The notes under the pieces are model-generated. The model did not search any database, was not told the origin of the DNA, and saw only the letters and a program-made list of their open reading frames with translations. A stretch of DNA of 64,000 bases, taken from Gordonia insulae (GTDB lineage Bacteria > Actinomycetota > Actinomycetes > Mycobacteriales > Mycobacteriaceae). Position numbers and translations under genes: made by a program. Positions 54,544 to 64,000 of the stretch are shown piece by piece (the first letter of the stretch is position 1; every line of letters starts with the position of its first letter). Location of the stretch: positions 1,302,001-1,366,000 of the forward strand of contig NZ_CP033972.1 in assembly GCF_003855095.1 (NCBI RefSeq), in the 5' to 3' direction.

Positions 54544-55236
54544 TCAGCGCTCCAGATACTCGTGTGGCAGCCGGTCACTGCCGGGAACCAGGTATTCGTC
54601 GGCGGCCAGCATGCGGGTCCACTCACCGGTGAATCCGCGATACCTGCTGTCGACCATTTGCCAATCGGTCACCTCCAGGCCGTCGACGACGAGGCCCAGC
54701 ACCGCCCCCGCGAGGGCGACGTCTGCACGACCGGCCGATTCCCACTTTCCGGCGGTCAGCTCGCCGGGATAGACGGTCAGGCAGCCGGATTCGTCAGTGT
54801 CGACCCGGCCGCCCAGACGTCGCAGATTGTCGGCGACGACCGCCCCCGACGCCGCGTCATCGACGACGATGCGGCTCGGCCCGTCGGCGAGTGCGGCGAC
54901 CGCGATCAGTATCTGCGCGATCGCGTCGTCGCATACACCCAGGTCAACGGCACCCACAGCACCGCTCGTCGATCGTCCGGTGACGGTCAGCCCGGCCGCC
55001 GACGACACCACGTACCCACCCATGTCGGCGAACGCACCAGCCACCGTCTCAGCGGCCGACGACCTGTCAGGCCAGTTGCGAATGAGTACCGTGCCGCCGG
55101 TGATGAGGCCCGCCGCGGCGAACGCGGCCGCCACCGCCACATCGGGCGCGTCCGTCGCGGGAGCGGTCGGAACGCTCACCCGGGCACGCACCGGTGCCGC
55201 TGCCGTCGGCGCACGCCACCCTCGTCCGCCGCTCAC
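54544..55236 (-). CDS. EPSP-synthase-like protein, half-size
   Basis: This 230-residue protein matches parts of one EPSP synthase (AroA/MurA fold) half. It contains a DAPDVAVAAAFAAAGLITGG segment, SSAAETVAGAFADMGGYV, VCDDAIAQILIAVAALADGP (where AroA has its conserved Asp and following helix) and ADNLRRLGGRVDTDESG. Full AroA is about 430 residues with two such domains. Here the ES-x-R catalytic block is replaced by DAASGAVVADNLRR, and the N-terminal domain is missing, so shikimate-pathway activity is improbable. GTG 55236 overlaps the stop of the AsnC-type regulator gene (GTGA), so the two are made together. The function is unknown; a binding or regulatory role is possible. Confidence 0.55.
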   Translation of the reverse strand: MSGGRGWRAPTAAAPVRARVSVPTAPATDAPDVAVAAAFAAAGLITGGTVLIRNWPDRSSAAETVAGAFADMGGYVVSSAAGLTVTGRSTSGAVGAVDLGVCDDAIAQILIAVAALADGPSRIVVDDAASGAVVADNLRRLGGRVDTDESGCLTVYPGELTAGKWESAGRADVALAGAVLGLVVDGLEVTDWQMVDSRYRGFTGEWTRMLAADEYLVPGSDRLPHEYLER

Positions 55237-56192
55237 GGACGCACCTCCATCGGGTAGTGATAGCTCTCTTTCACGGTGTCCAGATGCACCCAACTGTCGA
55301 TCCGCAGCACCGACCGCAGCGCCCGGAGTCGATCCAGCACACTGACCACCTCCGCCAACGAATCCGCGTCGATCGTGGCCAGCAGGTCATACCGGCCGAG
55401 CGTCTCGGCCAGGAAGCGCACCTCGGGCATTCCGGCGAGCAAGTCACCGCCGGCCGCGACGGGGCCGCGCAGCGAGAGTCCCACCCCCACGTCCACTCGC
55501 CCATCGCGCCGCCCGGTCCGCGTGATGGCACCGATGCGAACCACACCGTTGTCGATCATCCGCAGGACGCGGGTCCGGGCGGTGCCGGTGGACACCCCCA
55601 CCCGCTCGGCCAAGGCGGTGAACGGCAGACGACCATCGAATTGCAAGTGCGACAGTATCTTCGCGTCGACCCGATCAATCCCCACATCGGCGGCCTGAGT
55701 GGGCCGCAACACGTCGACGGTCAGGTTGGTGTAATAGAGCGTCTCGGTCTCACGCACCCCATCGACCGACCGCACCCGGTCGAGCACCGCGGCGAGTTCG
55801 GCATCGCTGCGCGCGCGGACCTCCGCGATCAGCGGAAAGCTCCCCGATGCCAGCGACACGAACGGCACCTCGGGCATCGCGGCCAGGGCGTCGGCCACGC
55901 GACGCACCGGCTGGTCGACGGTCAGCGAGATGTGCGCCAGCGAGCGAATCCCCAGTGTCAGCGGATGCACGATACCGACGACCCGCACGATGTCCTCGTC
56001 GAGCATCTGGCTCAGCCGCCGCGCCGCGGCAGCTCTGGAGATGCCGACCCGGTCGGCCAGATCGTTGGCCGTGATCCGCCCGTCGGCGCGCAACTCGTCC
56101 AGGATCTGCAGGTCCACACCCGAGACCGACGCCGGCCTTTGTTCATCACGAGAAATTAACAATTCCGCTCTTTTCGACGCTGACGGACACAT
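55233..56192 (-). CDS. Double Lrp/AsnC-family regulator
   Basis: This 319-residue protein is a tandem duplication of the Lrp unit. HTH 1 is at about residues 25-75 (LQILDELRADGRITANDLAD; RVGISRAAAARRLSQ), ligand domain 1 at about 85-165, HTH 2 at about 172-222 (AKILSHLQFDGRLPFTALAE; RVGVSTGTARTRVLRM) and ligand domain 2 at about 235-310. Single-unit Lrp proteins are about 150 residues. Such regulators sense amino acids or their products and control adjacent operons. It is divergent from the transporter/oxygenase operon at 56379, its probable target. The start ATG 56192 lies near a TTATCT -10-like hexamer. Confidence 0.87.
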   Translation of the reverse strand: MCPSASKRAELLISRDEQRPASVSGVDLQILDELRADGRITANDLADRVGISRAAAARRLSQMLDEDIVRVVGIVHPLTLGIRSLAHISLTVDQPVRRVADALAAMPEVPFVSLASGSFPLIAEVRARSDAELAAVLDRVRSVDGVRETETLYYTNLTVDVLRPTQAADVGIDRVDAKILSHLQFDGRLPFTALAERVGVSTGTARTRVLRMIDNGVVRIGAITRTGRRDGRVDVGVGLSLRGPVAAGGDLLAGMPEVRFLAETLGRYDLLATIDADSLAEVVSVLDRLRALRSVLRIDSWVHLDTVKESYHYPMEVRP

Positions 56193-56226
56193 TCTCAGTC
56201 AGATAAGCACTTCACTCGGGACCTGC

Positions 56227-56259
56227 TGCAAATTCACCATCTAGGTGATCGAATCTGCA
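56227..56259. promoter_or_regulatory. Imperfect dyad, candidate Lrp-type operator
   Basis: TGCAAATTCACC and GGTGATCGAATCTGCA form an imperfect inverted repeat in the AT-rich divergent promoter region. A second short dyad, TGTCCAGTACTGACA, follows at 56267-56281. Both sit between the regulator gene and the transporter promoter, the expected location for control by the AsnC-type protein. Confidence 0.45.
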
Positions 56260-56289
56260 ACTTTAGTGTCCAGTACTGACAATTCTAGT

Positions 56290-56318
56290 TTGTTTCACCC
56301 GCTGAGCACACCTAATGT
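56290..56318 (+). promoter_or_regulatory. Predicted promoter of the transporter/oxygenase operon
   Basis: TTGTTT (56290-56295) and TAATGT (56313-56318) are separated by exactly 17 bases. Transcription would begin near 56325, giving a leader of about 54 nt to ATG 56379. The in-frame ATG at 56325 would then be at the transcript end. Confidence 0.5.
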
Positions 56319-56378
56319 TCCGTGATGAAACGACCGGCGACCACGCCGGCAAGTACACGACGAGGTCTGAGGAACGCC

Positions 56379-57215
56379 ATGCGAAGAGTTCTGGTCAGCA
56401 TCGCCGCCACCGTGTTGGCAGCAACCACGATCGCCGGCTGCGGGAGCAGCAGCGGGGGCACCGAGGCATCGGGTGACGCACCCGCGGGCCTGCTGCGTGA
56501 GGGCCAGCTCTCGGTGTGCACCGACCCCGAGTATCCGCCGATGGAATACTTCGCCGATGGCGACACCTCCAACCCGGTCGGCTTCGACCCCGACGGCGCC
56601 CGCGCCCTGGCCGACCTCTGGGGCCTCGACATCACGTGGCAGAACACCGCATTCGACGGCCTCATGCCTGCGCTGCAGGCCAAGCGCTGCGACATTCTCT
56701 GGGCCGCCCTCTATCTCAGCCCGGAACGTCTCGAGGTTGCCGACGGCAGCCCGTTCATGAACACCGGCCCGGGCCTGATCGTGCCGTCGGGCACCACCGA
56801 CATCACCACCTCCGACGACCTGTCCGGCAAGACGGTCGCGGTACAAGGTGGCGGCTCGAATGAGTTGACACTCAAGGACCTGTCGAGCAAGTTCGAATCC
56901 GAGGGCAAGCCGGGCATCACCATTCAGCCGTACCCCAAGACCGCAGAAACCGTCGCCGCCGTCACCAACGGCAAGGCCGACGCGCTCATCGAGACCGACG
57001 TCGCGGTGGTGGACATGGTCAACAAGTCGGGCGGCAGCCTCAAGTCCGTCCCCGGCGTCTTCCCCGCGGAGACCAAGTTCGGCGTGTTCACGCTCAAGGA
57101 CTCACCGCTGAGTCCCGCCGTCGCCGAGGGACTGCAGACGCTCAACGACAACGGCACACTGGGCAAGCTCGCCGAGAAGTACGGTCTCGATCCCAACAGC
57201 ATCGTCACCGAGTAG
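56379..57215 (+). CDS. ABC transporter substrate-binding lipoprotein, polar amino acid type
   Basis: This 278-residue protein has a lipoprotein signal peptide: [20 protein letters not shown] followed by Cys21, the lipobox Cys. The mature domain is a family 3 solute-binding protein ([88 protein letters not shown]). These bind polar amino acids, opines or related cations. GAGGA is six bases before ATG 56379; an in-frame start at 56322 would add 19 residues before the signal. It is the first gene of an operon with a permease and an ATPase. Confidence 0.88.
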
Positions 57216-57218
57216 GCC

Positions 57219-57947
57219 ATGACCTTCGAGTGGAACGTCTTCATCGACGCGCTGACCTCCGGCACGTTTCTCCGCGGAGCGTTGCTGTCGCTGGCGCTGG
57301 CGGTCGTCTCGATGATCGCCGCCACGGTCATCGGGTTCGTGGTCGCGTTGCTGCGAATCGCGAAGAACTCGGGCGCACGCTCGGTCGGTTGGACCTACGT
57401 CTGGTTCTTCCGCGCCATCCCCACGCTGCTGGTGCTGCTGCTCATCTGGAACGCCGGCCCCCAGCTCTTCCCCGCGCTACGGGAGAACTGGTTCACCCCG
57501 TTCCTGGCCGCATTCGTGGGCTTCGCCGTCGTGGAGGCGGCGTACATGGCCGAGATCCTGCGGTCGGCGCTGCTATCGGTCGACGACGGCCAGCACATCG
57601 CGGCCCGCGCCCTCGGCCTGCCACCGCACAAGGTGTTGTTCAAAGTGGTGCTGCCGCAGGCCATCAAGGTCGCGATTCCGCCCAGCGGAAACGAGTTCAT
57701 CGCGATGCTGAAGTACACGTCGCTGGCCTCGGTCATCTCGCTGCGCGAACTGCTGACAACCGCACAATCCGAGGTGTCGGTCACCTTCCGCTACGCCGAA
57801 TACTATTCGGCTGCACTGATCTACTACCTCGTGATCGTCAGTGTCGCGATGTTGGGCCAGTACTTCCTCGAACGGCGCTACCAGTGGATCTCGAAGGGGC
57901 AGCACACCTCGGTGACCACACCGACATCCCAGGAGGTCCCCGCATGA
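57219..57947 (+). CDS. Amino acid ABC transporter permease
   Basis: This 242-residue inner-membrane permease of the HisM/GlnP type has about five membrane segments ([40 protein letters not shown]). The EAA loop, which contacts the ATPase, is [20 protein letters not shown]. The N-terminal [18 protein letters not shown] is typical of polar amino acid permeases. Only one permease gene is present, so a homodimer is likely. It starts three bases after the binding-protein stop and overlaps the ATPase gene (ATGA). Confidence 0.92.
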
Positions 57948-58711
57948 GTGAGCCGGTACTGCAGGCGATCAACCTGCATCGCACATACGGCAATACCGAG
58001 GTCCTCAAGGGTGTCGACCTCACCGTCGGCAAGGGCGAGGTCAAGGCGCTGCTGGGGCCGTCGGGGTCCGGCAAGTCCACCATCCTGCGCCTGTTGGCCC
58101 TGCTCGAGCCGGCCGACGACGGCGAGATCCTGCTCAACGGCAAGCAATTGGGTGTGTCGGTGATGTCCGACGGGACCACCCGGCCGCTGCGGGAATCGCA
58201 TCTGGCCCGCCAACGTCGCGACATCGGGATGGTGTTCCAACGGTTCAATCTCTTCGCGCACCTCGACGTGGCGCACAACGTCACGCTGGCGTTGACCGAG
58301 GTCGCCGGTATGTCCAAGGCCGATGCCCGGCAGCAGGCCGAGGCCATGCTCGAACGCGTCGGGATGGCGCACCGGCTCAAGCACTACCCCAGCGAGTTGT
58401 CCGGCGGACAGCAGCAGCGGGTCGCCATCGCGCGGGCGCTGGTGATGAACCCGTCGGTGATGTTGTTCGACGAGCCCACCTCCGCGCTCGACCCGGAACT
58501 GGTCGGCGAGGTACTCGACGTGATGGAACAACTCGCCGACGAGGGTATGACCATGGTGGTCGTCACCCACGAAACCCGTTTCGCCCGTCGCGTCGCCAAC
58601 GAGGTCTCCCTGTTCGACAGCGGGCGGATCGTCGAATCCGGTCCGCCGGAAACGTTCTTCGACGACCCCAGCCATGCGCGTACCCGACAATTCCTGTCCC
58701 ACCTGCACTGA
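57944..58711 (+). CDS. Amino acid ABC transporter ATP-binding protein
   Basis: This 255-residue cytosolic ATPase of the GlnQ type has Walker A GPSGSGKS at residues 38-45, Q-loop [17 protein letters not shown], signature [15 protein letters not shown], Walker [15 protein letters not shown] and the H-loop [10 protein letters not shown]. It powers the preceding permease. Codon use and GC match neighbours. The ATG overlaps the permease stop, showing tight coupling. Confidence 0.94.
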
Positions 58712-58743
58712 CATATCACCGACCGATGTGGAGCATCCCAGAG

Positions 58744-59727
58744 ATGAGCGACCAACGACCGCTCGCCGTCTACACCGACACCGACGACCTCAATCCCGCT
58801 GCCGGGGTTGACCTGTTGTCCGGCAATGGCTTCCGGGTCGAGGTGTGCCAGACCCGTGATCCCGACCGGATCGCCGAGGCGGCCGCCGGTGCGAGCGCGC
58901 TGTTGGTGGGTTATGCACCCATCGACCGCGAGCTGCTCGACCGACTGCCTGATCTGCGGATCATCGCATTGCTCTCGCGCGGCTACGACAACGTCGACGT
59001 GGCCGCGGCCACCGAACGCGGGATCTGGGTATGCACCGTCGCAGATCTGGCGTCCGAAGAGGTCGGCACACATGCCTGGACCCTGAGTCTGGCTCTGTTG
59101 CGCCAACTCCCGTACTTCGCCGGGTGTGGCACGGTGCACGGGTGGATCGATCGGCCGCCAACGCTGCCGCGCCGACTGTCGGAGGTGACCGTCGGCGTGC
59201 TCGGCCTGGGGAGCACCGGCCGCGCGTATGCCGAACTCGCCGCTCCCGCCGCCGCGCGGGTGCTGGCACACGACGTCAGCCGCGGGCCGGACCGACCGGA
59301 CGTCCCCGGGGTGCAGATCGTCGATTTCTGGACGGTCATCGAGGAAGCCGATGTGCTCTCCCTGCATCTCCCGCTCACCGAGAAGACGCGCGGCATCATC
59401 GACGCCGAAGCGATCGCCCGAATGCGTGACGATGCGTACCTCGTCAACGTCGCCCGCGGTGCGCTGCTCGACCCCGCCGCACTGCTCGACGCGCTCGATC
59501 ACCACCGGCTGGCCGGCGCCGCACTCGATGTGTTCGACACCGAACCCCCGGCCGCCGATGACCCGCTGCTGGCGCATCCCCGGGTGCTCACCACCCCGCA
59601 CGTCGCGTACCTGTCCACCACCACCGAAAGCGGCTACATCACCGCGCAGGCGAACAACGTCCTCGCCTGGCACGACGAGGGCCGGCCGACCGATCCCATC
59701 AACCACATCGCAGGAATGCCATGCTGA
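58744..59727 (+). CDS. D-isomer-specific 2-hydroxyacid dehydrogenase
   Basis: This 327-residue NAD(P)-dependent enzyme interconverts a 2-oxo acid and a D-2-hydroxy acid. The coenzyme motif GLGSTG is at residues 154-159, with an Asp at the end of the next strand (LAHDVSRG), which suggests NAD. Catalytic Arg238 (LVNVARGALLD), Glu267 (DTEPPA) and His286 (TPHVAYL) are all present. ATG 58744 is preferred because GGAG lies ten bases upstream; an in-frame ATG at 58726 has no ribosome site. It follows the ATPase gene by 32 bp and overlaps the next gene by seven. The substrate in this operon is unknown. Confidence 0.86.
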   Translation: MSDQRPLAVYTDTDDLNPAAGVDLLSGNGFRVEVCQTRDPDRIAEAAAGASALLVGYAPIDRELLDRLPDLRIIALLSRGYDNVDVAAATERGIWVCTVADLASEEVGTHAWTLSLALLRQLPYFAGCGTVHGWIDRPPTLPRRLSEVTVGVLGLGSTGRAYAELAAPAAARVLAHDVSRGPDRPDVPGVQIVDFWTVIEEADVLSLHLPLTEKTRGIIDAEAIARMRDDAYLVNVARGALLDPAALLDALDHHRLAGAALDVFDTEPPAADDPLLAHPRVLTTPHVAYLSTTTESGYITAQANNVLAWHDEGRPTDPINHIAGMPC

Positions 59728-60590
59728 CCCCCACCGCCGAACTGGCCGTCTTCCAGTCGCTGTGGGCGATGGAGGATCTGCCGACTGCCCGCACACCCTG
59801 GACGCTGCCCGAACAGGCCGCGCGTATCTCGGAAGCTGGGTTCGCCGGCCTGGCCGTCGACCTCGGGGCCCGACAGGCACCCACCGCCGCGGACCTGGCA
59901 CCGCTGCTCGCGGAGCACGACCTCGCCGCGATGGTGTTCGCCTTCGTCGGCGACCGGGCCGGCCTGGACTCCGCCATCGAGTACGCCCACGGGATCGGGG
60001 CGATTCGCATGGTGGTGTGCGCCCAGATCTACGGATTCGATCCGGTTCCCCTGTGCGAGACGCTGACCGACTGGTACGAGACGTGCCGGCAGGCCGGCAT
60101 CACGATGCAGGTGGAGACCCACCGCAACACCGTGACCAACGACCTGCGATTCACCAATCTGCTGCTCGGACACCTCGACCCACGGATCGAAGTGGCCGGC
60201 GACCTGTCTCATTTCGTCTGCGCCAACGAACTGCCCGACGACCCCACACCCGAACACGAGGCACTCATCACCGCGGTGTTGGAGCGATGCGGATCGTTGC
60301 AGGGCCGCATCGCCACCCGCGGCCAGGTCCAGGTCCCGCTGGGCACACCGGCCGGCGCCGGGTGGGAGCGGCGGTTCCGCGGCTGGTGGGAGACCGGTTT
60401 CCGGTCGATCCAGCGGCGCCATCCGGGCGAGCAGATCGTGTTCTGCACCGAACTCGGCACCCGGCCATACGCCATCACCGACGTCGACGGCAACGAGCTT
60501 TCCGACCGTTGGCACGAAGCCCTCATCCTCAAAGAGTGGGCGGCCCAGGCGTTCCGCGCCGCCACCGAAGAACTCCAGGAGCAACGATGA
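59721..60590 (+). CDS. TIM-barrel sugar phosphate isomerase/epimerase-like protein
   Basis: This 289-residue protein has the xylose-isomerase-like TIM barrel layout. An N-terminal GFAGLAVDLGAR strand, MQVETHRNTVTNDL (a Glu/His pair that commonly binds a divalent metal), VAGDLSHFVCANELPDD (Asp/His) and IVFCTELGTRPYAI (terminal Glu) are visible. Members isomerise or epimerise sugars, inositols or hydroxypyruvate, or cleave abasic DNA; the metal-ligand pattern supports an enzyme. The ATG overlaps the dehydrogenase stop, and its stop overlaps the Rieske gene (ATGA). The substrate is not known. Confidence 0.75.
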   Translation: MLTPTAELAVFQSLWAMEDLPTARTPWTLPEQAARISEAGFAGLAVDLGARQAPTAADLAPLLAEHDLAAMVFAFVGDRAGLDSAIEYAHGIGAIRMVVCAQIYGFDPVPLCETLTDWYETCRQAGITMQVETHRNTVTNDLRFTNLLLGHLDPRIEVAGDLSHFVCANELPDDPTPEHEALITAVLERCGSLQGRIATRGQVQVPLGTPAGAGWERRFRGWWETGFRSIQRRHPGEQIVFCTELGTRPYAITDVDGNELSDRWHEALILKEWAAQAFRAATEELQEQR

Positions 60591-61798
60591 CCATCAGCGA
60601 CAGCGTCACGGCGGTGTCCCCCACCGATCACGTCAGCGCCGCAGGCAACCGGATCGTGTCCGGACCGCTGCAGAGCGACAGCAGCCAGCGAGCGCTGATT
60701 CCGGCGCGCGCCTATGTGGGACAAGAAGAGTTCGACCTGGAACAGGAGCGGATCTTCTCCTCGGGTTGGGTGTGGGCCGGGTTCGCCCATTGGGTCGACG
60801 AGCCGGGCAAGGTGCATCCGGTGACGGTCGGGGGCAAACCCCTGCTGATCATCCGGGGCGAGGACGAGCAGGTCCGCGTCTTTCACAACTCGTGCCGTCA
60901 CCGTGGCATGGCCATGCTCGATGAGCCCGCCAAAGTCCGTCGGCGCATCCAGTGCGCGTATCACTGCTGGTCGTACAACCTCGACGGAAGCCTTCACGCC
61001 ACACCGTATTTCAAGCGAGAGCGCACCCGCGCGCTACCTGAAGGCGCCGACGACCTCGGCCTGCTCGCCGTCTCGTCGCGTGTGTGGGCGGGCATGGTGT
61101 TCGTGAACCTGGCCACCGACTTCGCCGACACCGACGCTGCGGCCGCGGATTTCGCCGAGATGTTGGCGCCCATCACCGCACGTTGGGATCACGTCGATTT
61201 CGACCGCATCCATCTCGCCGACGAACGCGAGTTCGACATCGCGGTGAATTGGAAGCTGGTGGTGGAGAACTTCCTCGACTTCTATCACCTACCGTTCATC
61301 CACCCCCAGGTCGGTCCGGTCAGCGCCTCACTCGACGTCGATGACGTGTGGCTCGCCGATCACATCATCGGCGGGATGTATCCGCGGGGCGCGGCCGGCA
61401 AGACCGCGAAATCCGACGAGTCGCTGCCCTTCCTCGGTGACGTGCCCGTCGAGCGCACCGAGAGCCAGGACATCTTCTGCGTCTTCCCCAACGCGCTGCT
61501 GTTCCTCGAGGCCGACTGGTTCCAGGTCATCGGGTTCGACGCCGCCGCCCCGGACCGTACGGTGGAACACATGGCGATCTTCGTCGACTGCGATGCCGCC
61601 GCCGAGAAGTACGGCCCGGCCCGCAAGAGTCTGACCAACATCCTGTTCGAGGTGAACGAGCAGGATCTGCCGATCCTGCATCGACTGCAGGTGGGGCGCC
61701 ACTCACCCGCGTCGGATCGAACCAATCTGGTGACCCATTGGGATCAGATCACCGCGCACTTCCAGGATCTCGTCGCCCGCAAGGCCGGCTACCAATGA
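60587..61798 (+). CDS. Rieske non-heme iron oxygenase, alpha subunit type
   Basis: This 403-residue protein has an N-terminal Rieske [2Fe-2S] domain with ligands Cys103/His105 and Cys123/His126 (SCRHRGM; CAYHCWSY). Its catalytic START-like domain contains VENFLDFYHLPFIHP, giving bridging Asp231 and iron ligands His234 and His239, with Asp360 a likely third ligand. The alpha-only architecture resembles quaternary-ammonium or betaine monooxygenases (GbcA, carnitine and stachydrine enzymes) more than ring-hydroxylating dioxygenases with beta subunits. No reductase or ferredoxin gene is in the operon, so electrons must come from elsewhere. Translation is coupled on both sides (ATGA overlaps). Confidence 0.88.
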   Translation: MTISDSVTAVSPTDHVSAAGNRIVSGPLQSDSSQRALIPARAYVGQEEFDLEQERIFSSGWVWAGFAHWVDEPGKVHPVTVGGKPLLIIRGEDEQVRVFHNSCRHRGMAMLDEPAKVRRRIQCAYHCWSYNLDGSLHATPYFKRERTRALPEGADDLGLLAVSSRVWAGMVFVNLATDFADTDAAAADFAEMLAPITARWDHVDFDRIHLADEREFDIAVNWKLVVENFLDFYHLPFIHPQVGPVSASLDVDDVWLADHIIGGMYPRGAAGKTAKSDESLPFLGDVPVERTESQDIFCVFPNALLFLEADWFQVIGFDAAAPDRTVEHMAIFVDCDAAAEKYGPARKSLTNILFEVNEQDLPILHRLQVGRHSPASDRTNLVTHWDQITAHFQDLVARKAGYQ

Positions 61799-62550
61799 GC
61801 GGCAGCGACGCCGGCGAGGCCGAGCTCCGACGCCAGCTCGCCGCCGTGTATCGGCTGGTGGCGCACTACAAGATGACCGATCTCATCTTCACCCACATCT
61901 CGGTGCGCATCCCGGGCCCCGAGGATCATTTCCTGATCAATCCGTATGGGCTGTTGTTCGAGGAGATCACCGCGTCGAACCTGGTGCGGATCGACCTCGA
62001 CGGCAACGTCGTCGGCGACAGTTCGGCCGTGGTGAACCCTGCCGGTTTCGTCATCCACAGCGCCATCCATCGCGAACGGGCAGACGCCCACTGCATTCTG
62101 CACACCCACACGCTCGCCGGGTGCGCGGTCGCGGCGTCGGCGACGGGACTGCTGCCGCTCAACCAGATCTCGATGGAGTTCCACAACCGGGTCGGCTATC
62201 ACGACTACGAGGGGGTGGCACTCAACGTCGACGAACAGAAGCGGATCGTCGACGACATCGGATCGCACCCGGCGCTGATCCTGCGCAACCACGGACTGTT
62301 GACCGTGGGCGAGACGCCCGGGCGGGCGTTCCTGCGGATGTTTTACCTCAACAAGGCCTGCGAGATCCAGGTGGCGGCCACCCGCGCCGGCGACCTGGTC
62401 TTGCCCGACCCCGCCGTCGCCGAGCACGCCGCGCGCCAACTCAACGGCGAAGACGCCGGCGACGACTACACCGACGATGTGGGCCTGGATCTGGCCTGGG
62501 ACGCCATGGTGCGCCTCGTCGAGCGCATCGCCCCGGACTACAAGGACTGA
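61795..62550 (+). CDS. Class II aldolase/adducin-fold protein
   Basis: This 251-residue protein has the zinc-binding pattern of the family: HTH at residues 103-105 (CILHTHTLAG) and His166 (LRNHGLLTVG). The position that in fuculose- or rhamnulose-phosphate aldolases carries the catalytic Glu (PSSE..LH) reads NPAGFVIHSAIH here, without Glu, so a classical retro-aldol on sugar phosphates is doubtful. Decarboxylases, dehydratases and adducin-like proteins share the fold. It begins with an ATGA overlap with the Rieske gene and ends six bases before the ureohydrolase gene. Confidence 0.82.
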   Translation: MSGSDAGEAELRRQLAAVYRLVAHYKMTDLIFTHISVRIPGPEDHFLINPYGLLFEEITASNLVRIDLDGNVVGDSSAVVNPAGFVIHSAIHRERADAHCILHTHTLAGCAVAASATGLLPLNQISMEFHNRVGYHDYEGVALNVDEQKRIVDDIGSHPALILRNHGLLTVGETPGRAFLRMFYLNKACEIQVAATRAGDLVLPDPAVAEHAARQLNGEDAGDDYTDDVGLDLAWDAMVRLVERIAPDYKD

Positions 62551-62556
62551 GAGCCG

Positions 62557-63522
62557 ATGACCGCAAACATGATTCGCGGACCGCTGGATGCCAGCGCAAC
62601 CCCGCGCTATACCGAACCGTCCACCTTTGCCCGGCTGCCCCGGCTCGACGAGGTGCCCGGTGCGGCGGTGAAGATCATCGGCATCCCGTTCGACAGTGGT
62701 GTCAGCTACCGGCCCGGCGCCCGGTTCGGCCCCGGCCACATCCGCGCGTCGTCAAAGCTGCTGCGCCCCTATAACCCTGCGCTGGATGTGGCGCCGTTCG
62801 GCATCCAGCAGGTGGCCGACGCCGGCGACATCGCCGTCAATCCGTTCGACATCGTCGAAGCGCTCGCGACTGTCGAGCATGCGGCAACCGACCTGACCGC
62901 CGACGGCGCCCGCCTGCTCACCCTGGGCGGCGACCACACCCTGGCACTGCCGCTGCTGCGAGCGGTCCACAAGGAGCGCGGCAAGATCGCGGTGCTGCAC
63001 TTCGACGCGCACCTCGACACCTGGGACACCTACTTCGGCGCGCCGTTCACCCACGGCACCCCGTTTCGTCGCGCCAGCGAAGAGGGACTGATCGACATGG
63101 AGCGATCCATGCACGTCGGCATCCGCGGCCCCCTCTACGGCAAGGCCGACCTCGAGGCCGACGGCGTGCTCGGCTTTCAGATCGTGCGCTCGGACGACTA
63201 CCAGTTCGACGGTGTCCGCAGCATCATCGAACGCGTACACCGGCGGATGGCCGGTGGACCCGTGTACATCTCCGTCGACATCGACGTTCTCGACCCGGCA
63301 CACGCACCGGGCACCGGCACCCCGGAAGCCGGCGGCATGACCTCGCGCGAGTTGCTCAACACCCTGCGCGGCCTGGTCGGCCTCGACATCGTGGGCGCCG
63401 ACATCGTGGAGGTGGCCCCCGCCTACGACCACGCCGAGATCACCGGCATCGCCGCCGCCCACGTGGGCTACGAACTGTTGTCGGTGCTCGCCGCCAACGA
63501 GGCACACCGGTCGGGTCACTGA
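62557..63522 (+). CDS. Agmatinase/ureohydrolase family protein
   Basis: This 321-residue dimanganese hydrolase releases urea from a guanidino compound. All metal ligands are visible: His127 ([10 protein letters not shown]), Asp150/His152/Asp154 ([11 protein letters not shown]), and Asp241/Asp243 ([11 protein letters not shown]). [11 protein letters not shown] is the conserved loop. The family contains agmatinase, guanidinobutyrase, guanidinopropionase and guanidine hydrolase, and sequence motifs alone do not choose among them. It is the last gene of the operon. Urease encoded at 19-24 kb could consume the urea produced. A speB label would be premature. Confidence 0.86.
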
Positions 63523-63592: not shown

Positions 63593-64000
63593 TCAGCCCA
63601 GGATGCCGGCGGCCCGGGCCGCCCGCCGGTATGCTGCGGCCAGCGTGTCCACGGTCTCGTGGGCGTTGAGCCCGCTCGGATTGGGTACCACCCAGACCGC
63701 GGCGCCGTCCCACCGCTCGTCCTGCGGTCCGGCGACCGCCCGCGGCTGATCGAAGGCCGATCGGTACGCCGTGATACCGGCGATCGCGACGACCCTGGGC
63801 GACACGCGGCGCACCGTCGCGCGCAGCCGCCGACCACCCGCCCGCAGCTCGTCGGCAGACAGTTCGGCGGCGGTTGCGCTCGCCCGCGCCACCACGTTGG
63901 TGATCCCGACGCCACGACGACACAGGAGATCGCGATCGTCGTCGCACATTCCGGCCGACGCGTCGATCAGCCGGTCGACGATGCCCGCCCGGTACAGGGC
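63593..64000 (-). CDS. mug: Mismatch-specific (Mug-type) DNA glycosylase, C-terminal part
   Basis: This gene runs off the right edge; 135 C-terminal residues are visible on the minus strand and the start lies beyond 64000. The segments GITNVVARASATAAELSADEL, RLRATVRRVSPRVVAIAGI and WVVPNPSGLNAHET match the uracil/thymine mismatch glycosylase family; NPSGLN is the conserved loop that probes the DNA minor groove. The catalytic N-terminal motif is not in the window. The family removes uracil or ethenocytosine opposite guanine. The gene is convergent with the ureohydrolase gene. Confidence 0.88.
   Translation of the reverse strand, partial: ALYRAGIVDRLIDASAGMCDDDRDLLCRRGVGITNVVARASATAAELSADELRAGGRRLRATVRRVSPRVVAIAGITAYRSAFDQPRAVAGPQDERWDGAAVWVVPNPSGLNAHETVDTLAAAYRRAARAAGILG

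Follow-up and report, generated by a model that had tools for sequence, protein, structure and literature searches.

Two of the described systems closest to the one considered here pass through 4-guanidinobutyrate. In the 2-ketoarginine route of Pseudomonas, which is entered by a transaminase and relies on AruH, AruI and GbuA, 2-ketoarginine loses one carbon to give 4-guanidinobutyrate, from which a ureohydrolase produces γ-aminobutyrate (GABA) and urea. In the actinobacterial arginine 2-monooxygenase/4-guanidinobutanamidase route, a flavin oxidase and an amidase convert free arginine to 4-guanidinobutyrate. Here we analyse an operon of eight plus-strand genes at positions 56379-63522 of a stretch of 64,000 nucleotides from Gordonia insulae (contig NZ_CP033972.1, positions 1,302,001 to 1,366,000; ‘the window’ in the following), which lies in a 5.96-Mb single-contig genome. 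With somewhat better than even confidence, we propose that this operon imports and degrades an arginine derivative without a free α-amino group, via 2-ketoarginine and 4-guanidinobutyrate to GABA and urea. It would share with the Pseudomonas route 2-ketoarginine, the one-carbon loss and the ureohydrolase step, and an AruI-type gene is found at three related loci (L009, L124 and L125; L-numbers denote loci fetched around relatives). However, entry would be by a 2-hydroxyacid dehydrogenase (and a Rieske oxygenase with a TIM-barrel partner) instead of a transaminase, and the window's version has a class II aldolase-fold protein instead of AruI. With the arginine 2-monooxygenase route the operon would have the product 4-guanidinobutyrate in common, and such a gene pair may adjoin it at one locus (L091), but that route involves neither a Rieske enzyme nor a dehydrogenase or TIM barrel. 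The operon is thus a new combination of known families; an initial annotation, made from the sequence of the window, knew of no described pathway with this gene set, and we likewise found no description of such an operon or enzyme combination in the open-licence literature searched.

All eight genes are open and lie where the initial annotation had placed them, and family searches agree with the assignments it had made:

56379..57215, plus strand: family 3 solute-binding lipoprotein, arginine-type pocket without the α-amino residues (PF00497, pocket residues)
57219..57947, plus strand: ATP-binding cassette (ABC) permease, polar amino acid type (PF00528; TIGR01726 above cut-off)
57944..58711, plus strand: ABC ATPase, polar amino acid type (PF00005)
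58726..59727, plus strand: D-2-hydroxyacid dehydrogenase, proposed to convert argininate to 2-ketoarginine (PF02826/PF00389)
59721..60590, plus strand: xylose-isomerase-like metal TIM barrel, oxygenase-associated
60587..61798, plus strand: Rieske oxygenase α subunit (PF00355, PF00848)
61795..62550, plus strand: class II aldolase/adducin-fold protein, proposed oxidative decarboxylase yielding 4-guanidinobutyrate (PF00596; PRK07044)
62557..63522, plus strand: ureohydrolase, guanidinobutyrase/guanidinopropionase type (PF00491, 304 bits)

Neighbouring genes overlap at four junctions (by 4, 7, 4 and 4 bp), and the remaining gaps measure 3, 14 and 6 bp; an alternative start of the dehydrogenase at 58744 leaves a gap of 32 bp upstream of it, which reproduces the largest spacing initially reported. 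The 17-bp-spaced promoter that had been placed upstream was not recovered, as a σ70 consensus scan of 56100-56450 found no promoter. Overall, the initial observations are partly confirmed and their interpretation is partly supported.

The operon is patchy in its distribution yet kept as a whole unit. Among 301 genomes of the family, the TIM-barrel gene (E up to 1e-40) and the Rieske gene (E up to 1e-100) occur in the same 15, which span 7 of the 31 genera in this sample; within the genus, 2 of 59 genomes have the TIM-barrel gene, and so do 2 of the 394 genomes sampled across the class (the window's genome being counted each time). At the 15 family loci (L084, i.e. the window, and L086-L099) seven genes and a divergent regulator keep one and the same order in every case and all eight genes do so in 14, the window's locus counted, which is more than expected by chance; at L092, an opposite-strand gene is inserted between the aldolase-fold gene and the ureohydrolase. 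Loci L004-L007 and L014 recur among these 15 and are not counted again. The initial view of a single uptake-and-degradation unit is supported, and the lack of co-occurrence outside this strain, which was to refute it, was not observed. One record, titled Kitasatospora arboriphila NRRL B-24581 (L004/L087), groups with Williamsia and is probably mislabelled or contaminated; since L004 corresponds to L087 of the Williamsia genus group, it is no independent distant case.

The class of compound imported is suggested by the pocket of the binding protein, with positions taken from a sequence alignment, not a structure, to E. coli ArgT and numbered as in the lysine/arginine/ornithine-binding protein (LAO). 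All 12 operon binding proteins considered (the near copies L005, L014 and L098 and the truncated L009 were left out) keep Asp11, Tyr14, Phe52 and Arg77, i.e. the side-chain and carboxylate residues, and all have Tyr72 and Thr161. Among 120 listed of 191 homologues found, Asp11 is kept in 105, Tyr14 in 114 and Phe52 and Arg77 in all 120; at the α-amino positions, Ser72 is replaced by Tyr in 120 of 120 and Asp161 by Thr in 114 of 120. In LAO, Ser72 and Asp161 hold the amino group of arginine (PMC5740067). Asp161 is present in E. coli ArgT and HisJ. Of five further binding proteins encoded in the window's genome, four are alignable (all but L111, which has no alignable frame), and three of these four have Asp161 too. 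From these residues, a ligand with the side chain and carboxylate of arginine but no free α-amino group is expected. The hydroxyl group of argininic acid would fit the dehydrogenase as well as L124 and L125, and a methylated nitrogen would fit Tyr72 and the Rieske enzyme. These residues recur in the binding proteins of L124 and L125, so the pocket goes with the hydroxyacid route even where the locus lacks a Rieske gene.

Active-site residues were counted in 20 loci for the Rieske enzyme, the dehydrogenase and the TIM barrel, in 19 for the aldolase-fold protein and in 16 for the ureohydrolase. They bear out the initial statement that all enzymes but the aldolase-fold protein keep their key residues, with ligand and catalytic sets conserved across loci. 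The dehydrogenase has Arg244, Glu273 and His292 in 20 of 20 loci and an NAD domain (PF02826) scoring 172 bits, i.e. the features of a D-2-hydroxyacid dehydrogenase. It had initially been left without a role; the two smallest versions of the system (L124 and L125) retain it. For the ureohydrolase, the best matches in the PDB are guanidinobutyrase 3nio (276 bits) and guanidinopropionase 3nip (271 bits), and its metal residues are kept in 15-16 of 16 loci, L089 being frame-shifted at two; there the gene lies in two frames, by decay or sequencing errors, and the ureohydrolase of genome G064 has an intact frame.

For the aldolase-fold protein, the initial annotation had assumed cleavage of the carbon skeleton. 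FucA-type class II aldolases have a catalytic Glu beside the metal site, and NovR is an iron decarboxylase with the class II aldolase fold. The operon protein, which matches PRK07044 with 356 bits (cut-off 207), has Gly84 at the position of the FucA catalytic Glu in 19 of 19 loci. Its nearest structures are 3ocr and adducins, with NovR and TqaM scoring lower, at about 100 bits each. TqaM is described as a non-haem-iron oxidative decarboxylase (PMC12192607). NovR and TqaM have the fold, the metal histidines and the missing aldolase Glu in common with the operon protein (as aligned to NovR), but the similarity is weak and their substrates are different. Aldol cleavage was rejected because the aldolase Glu is absent and a decarboxylase-type gene is found at the three loci that lack the aldolase-fold gene (L009, L124 and L125). 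For these reasons, together with the kinship to adducins, NovR and TqaM, removal of the carboxyl carbon seems more likely than cleavage of the skeleton.

Further evidence comes from loci at which genes are added, swapped or missing. At 5 of the 15 family loci, a reductase gene lies between the Rieske and aldolase-fold genes, and gabT and gabD follow the ureohydrolase; at L007, GabT scores 589 (TIGR00700 cut-off 507) and the reductase contains a Fer2 domain. For gabT, the closest copy in the window's genome lies elsewhere (72% identity); this genome also has several reductases (up to 47%). The decarboxylase-type gene that clusters with the dehydrogenase where the aldolase-fold gene is missing belongs to the 5-guanidino-2-oxopentanoate decarboxylases (PRK07524, cut-off 500) and scores 489 bits in L009, 551 in L124 and 548 in L125; no such gene is present in the operon, and the best match in the window's genome has 33% identity. 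L124 and L125, from actinobacterial genomes of 1.6 and 1.3 Mb, combine binding protein, permease, ATPase, dehydrogenase, decarboxylase and an Amidohydro_3 protein, and the fetched stretches contain no Rieske or TIM-barrel gene; a ureohydrolase match lies near L124 (58%) and in the genome of L125 (62%). The Amidohydro_3 protein is conserved at L124:3834-5468 and L125:3536-5152, beside the 2-ketoarginine-decarboxylase-type gene.

At L009 (Microbacterium), relatives of the transporter, dehydrogenase, regulator, TIM barrel, Rieske enzyme with reductase, and a 5-enolpyruvylshikimate-3-phosphate (EPSP)-synthase-like gene found beside the operon are present. The stretch has neither an aldolase-fold gene nor a ureohydrolase, for which the best match in that genome has 30% identity, and DDAH-like and M20 carbamoylase-type genes lie between transporter and dehydrogenase. 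The M20 hydrolase, of the allantoate/carbamoylase type, is above its cut-off; the DDAH-like protein is above the Pfam ADI cut-off, and its best NCBIfam model is dimethylargininase (82 bits, cut-off 340). Urease appears in another group. On L127, a contig of a metagenome-assembled genome (MAG; G692), urease γ and α, an Lrp gene, a four-gene SBP_bac_8-type transporter and a ureohydrolase form one cluster, and L013 of the same genome, whose contig we infer to adjoin that of L127, carries the TIM-barrel, Rieske and aldolase-fold genes. L010 and L012 have urease (as read from the translations), Lrp, an SBP_bac_8-type transporter, dehydrogenase, TIM-barrel, Rieske and aldolase-fold genes. No full ureohydrolase is present in these two stretches, L012 holding a 70-residue frame that resembles one; other contigs of the two genomes carry ureohydrolases with identities of up to 67 and 65%, respectively. 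By the swaps in L009, L124 and L125, the dehydrogenase and the loss of one carbon fall at 2-ketoarginine, and the guanidino group comes last. The related loci support a guanidino-to-urea exit and, with it, the release of urea already suggested in the initial annotation.

A scheme can be drawn from what is observed, i.e. the gene set, its order and co-occurrence, the kept active-site residues, the altered binding pocket and the substitutions among genomes; all substrates and reactions in it are inferred from sequence, the Rieske/TIM-barrel step being the least certain. The ABC transporter would bring in argininic acid (2-hydroxy-5-guanidinopentanoate) or an arginine substituted at the α-nitrogen or α-oxygen. 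The 2-hydroxyacid dehydrogenase would interconvert the 2-hydroxy acid and 2-ketoarginine, from which the aldolase-fold protein would take off the carboxyl carbon, using iron and oxygen as in NovR or TqaM, to give 4-guanidinobutyrate, a role that an AruI-type decarboxylase may fill in some other genomes. The ureohydrolase would then yield GABA and urea, and GabT and GabD would convert GABA to succinate. The Rieske enzyme and its TIM-barrel partner probably unmask substituted forms, which would enter as hydroxy or keto acid; in the window's genome the Rieske reductase is presumably encoded elsewhere.

Several points weigh against this scheme. The role given to the Rieske/TIM-barrel pair is a guess, the EPSP-like gene is given none, and the reading of the pocket depends on alignment to LAO-type proteins. 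Tyr159 of the ureohydrolase, present in 16 of 16 loci at what we take to be the specificity position of GpuA and GbuA, aligns as in the guanidinopropionase GpuA and not as in GbuA, so guanidinopropionate is a possible substrate. The ureohydrolase gene lies away from the locus in L125 (by about 55 kb) and L093 (on another contig); at L009, the DDAH-like protein is far below NCBIfam cut-offs and the decarboxylase just below its own. No dehydrogenase gene is present in the fetched stretch of L011, so this enzyme is not universal, and the aldolase-fold gene there is frame-shifted into two frames, by decay or sequencing errors. Finally, lineages may differ in the compound that they import, since L010-L012 and L127 have a transporter of the SBP_bac_8 type.

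An alternative that centres on the Rieske oxygenase is that the substrate is arginine betaine or another N-methylated arginine, which this enzyme would hydroxylate beside the quaternary nitrogen to give 2-ketoarginine, freeing the amine (as CntA) or formaldehyde (as GbcA/Stc2), with all other steps unchanged. We regard this as rather unlikely. Rieske and mononuclear-iron ligands are kept in 20 of 20 loci, and plasmid relatives of the protein are below 60% identity in 928 of 928 records. As in group V Rieske oxygenases (CntA, GbcA, Stc2; PMC7948474), there is an α subunit without a β-subunit gene among the eight, and a reductase gene adjoins at some loci. Among solved sequences CntA comes closest (88 bits), but ahead of biphenyl dioxygenase (83 bits) by about 5 bits only, and GbcA is the nearest NCBIfam model, but far below its cut-off (110 vs 670). 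The bridging carboxylate is Asp231 in 39 of 39 aligned relatives (picked from 120 listed of 466), whereas group V enzymes have Glu, as in Glu205 of CntA (PMC7948474). Phe229, which takes the place of Tyr203 of CntA (the clade Va aromatic) in 39 of 39, proves nothing, since a Phe of biphenyl dioxygenase aligns there too, and a betaine-enzyme assignment based on this residue was dropped. The Tyr that replaces Ser72 in all 120 listed binding proteins could hold a methylated ammonium group; however, these pocket residues recur in L124 and L125, whose fetched stretches hold no Rieske gene, and a hydroxy acid fits this better. Betaine-type neighbours occur around TIM-barrel relatives, i.e. a BCCT transporter and a GbdR-like regulator (below cut-off) at L015 and trimethyllysine dioxygenase (above cut-off) and MTTB at L029, but within 5 kb of the TIM barrel MTTB is found at 3 and BCCT at 1 of 76 loci. 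Of the ‘guanidino or N-methylated’ substrate initially suggested, the guanidino part is supported and the N-methylated part is not.

An operon for ordinary arginine, agmatine or 4-guanidinobutyrate, in which the oxygenase and TIM-barrel genes ride along for another purpose, is less probable still. The ureohydrolase does exceed the agmatinase cut-off (224 vs 174), and a flavin amine oxidase and carbon-nitrogen hydrolase pair upstream of the operon in L091 (15132-17626) is reminiscent of the arginine 2-monooxygenase route to 4-guanidinobutyrate. However, family searches found neither an arginine transaminase nor an amino acid oxidase for entry among the eight genes, the residues for a free amino group are lost from the binding protein, and TIM barrel and Rieske enzyme go together in the same 15 of 301 genomes. 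An opine-like conjugate of arginine, for example octopine or nopaline, is in our view the least probable substrate. In the opine-binding proteins OccJ and NocT (PMC5740067), the residues for the arginine side chain and carboxylate are kept or similar, the α-amino Asp is lost, with Asn or Ser at 161, and Ala-Ala at 69/70 and Gln at 117 are found; the window's protein shares the loss of Asp161, the Ala-Ala pair and Gln117. Yet, it has Thr at 161. At LAO position 72, moreover, the Ser or Gly that matters in OccJ and NocT for the keto-acid part (Ser91/Gly97) is replaced by Tyr, as in all 120 homologues listed (191 found). Reading of the genes around the operon revealed no opine oxidase, although no family search was aimed at one.

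In the proposed scheme, the TIM-barrel protein shares the least certain step with the Rieske enzyme. It matches nothing in Pfam and NCBIfam at E 0.001, although many relatives carry a precomputed PF01261 assignment, and Glu132, Asp161 and Glu244 are kept in 20 of 20 loci, i.e. it has a xylose-isomerase-like fold with a Glu/Asp/His or Gln/Glu metal site (60 relatives aligned, picked from 120 listed of 277, plus 11 loci). It shares this fold and kind of metal site with IolE, D-tagatose 3-epimerase and related barrels, but at 9-18% identity in structural alignments, and its gene sits near oxygenase-type genes. Its structural matches (VIA-align, Foldseek top 1000 chains) range over sugar epimerases, dehydratases, lyases and xylose isomerase and so do not narrow down its reaction. 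MocC is presented in PMC10107442 as a protein of unknown function that is essential for the use of both rhizopine and scyllo-inosamine; a possible identity of the TIM barrel with MocC, considered at the level of description and not of sequence, was set aside. The plasmid hits shown for a rhizobial relative (25 out of 96) bear generic names or lack annotation.

An oxygenase-type gene lies within 5 kb of TIM-barrel relatives at 65 of 76 loci, a descriptive figure, since the choice of markers was itself based on genes observed in TIM-barrel neighbourhoods; at a distance of 5-10 kb, a marker is found at 3 of 76, with some loci extending less than 10 kb on a side. The 76 loci contain L019, L045 and L055, which had been dropped from clustering, and exclude L004-L007. 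Markers were tested against Pfam for L029 (PF00487), L079 (PF04116) and L015 (Rieske); the names FAdesat_a (L026) and RieskeAct (L007) come from reading or similarity. We tentatively suggest, as an idea with a less than even chance of being correct, that this family is a fixed partner of several oxygenase families and that the pair in the operon strips the α-substituent from a masked arginine. The barrel would process the oxidized products of Rieske enzymes and of membrane di-iron FA_desaturase and FA_hydroxylase types, a partnership that would span Actinobacteria and Proteobacteria, and the masked arginine would be arginine betaine or an α-substituted argininate, for which no bacterial route was found in the literature searched.

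In three Kiloniellaceae MAGs (L028, L029 and L031), the TIM-barrel gene adjoins an FA_desaturase-type gene, followed by a ureohydrolase of 41-42% identity and an MTTB-type gene. Two of them also have a gene of the trimethyllysine dioxygenase type, and the set is a second candidate guanidino/betaine pathway. At 7 of 76 loci (L025, L030, L033, L034, L039, L041 and L065, from Lysobacterales, Chromatiales and Xanthomonadales MAGs), it is found near methylenetetrahydrofolate-reductase-like and desaturase-type genes, neighbours that may link the family to one-carbon removal.

Around the operon itself, two minus-strand genes lie upstream:

55233..56192, minus strand: double Lrp/AsnC-type regulator, divergent from the operon (HTH_24 and AsnC_trans_reg, each twice)
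54544..55293, minus strand: EPSP-synthase-like half protein, AroA C-terminal part (PF00275, 53 bits)

The regulator is divergent at 15 of 15 family loci and likewise in L009-L012 and L127. The EPSP-like gene (at least 35% identity) is divergent at 13 of 15, adjoining the regulator, as does, by reading, a similar gene in L009; against the aroA model TIGR01356 the half protein scores 58 bits (cut-off 287). On the 3' side, a minus-strand gene at 63593-64000 resembles, by eye, mismatch-specific uracil-DNA glycosylase and is unrelated to the operon.

If our proposal is correct, arginine without a free α-amino group would constitute a class of nutrient whose breakdown was not found described in the literature searched, with predicted users among larger actinobacteria as well as two actinobacteria with genomes of 1.3-1.6 Mb. 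Each enzyme of the operon thereby receives a directly testable reaction, and the widespread TIM-barrel family could give new meaning to many current annotations as ‘sugar phosphate isomerase’.

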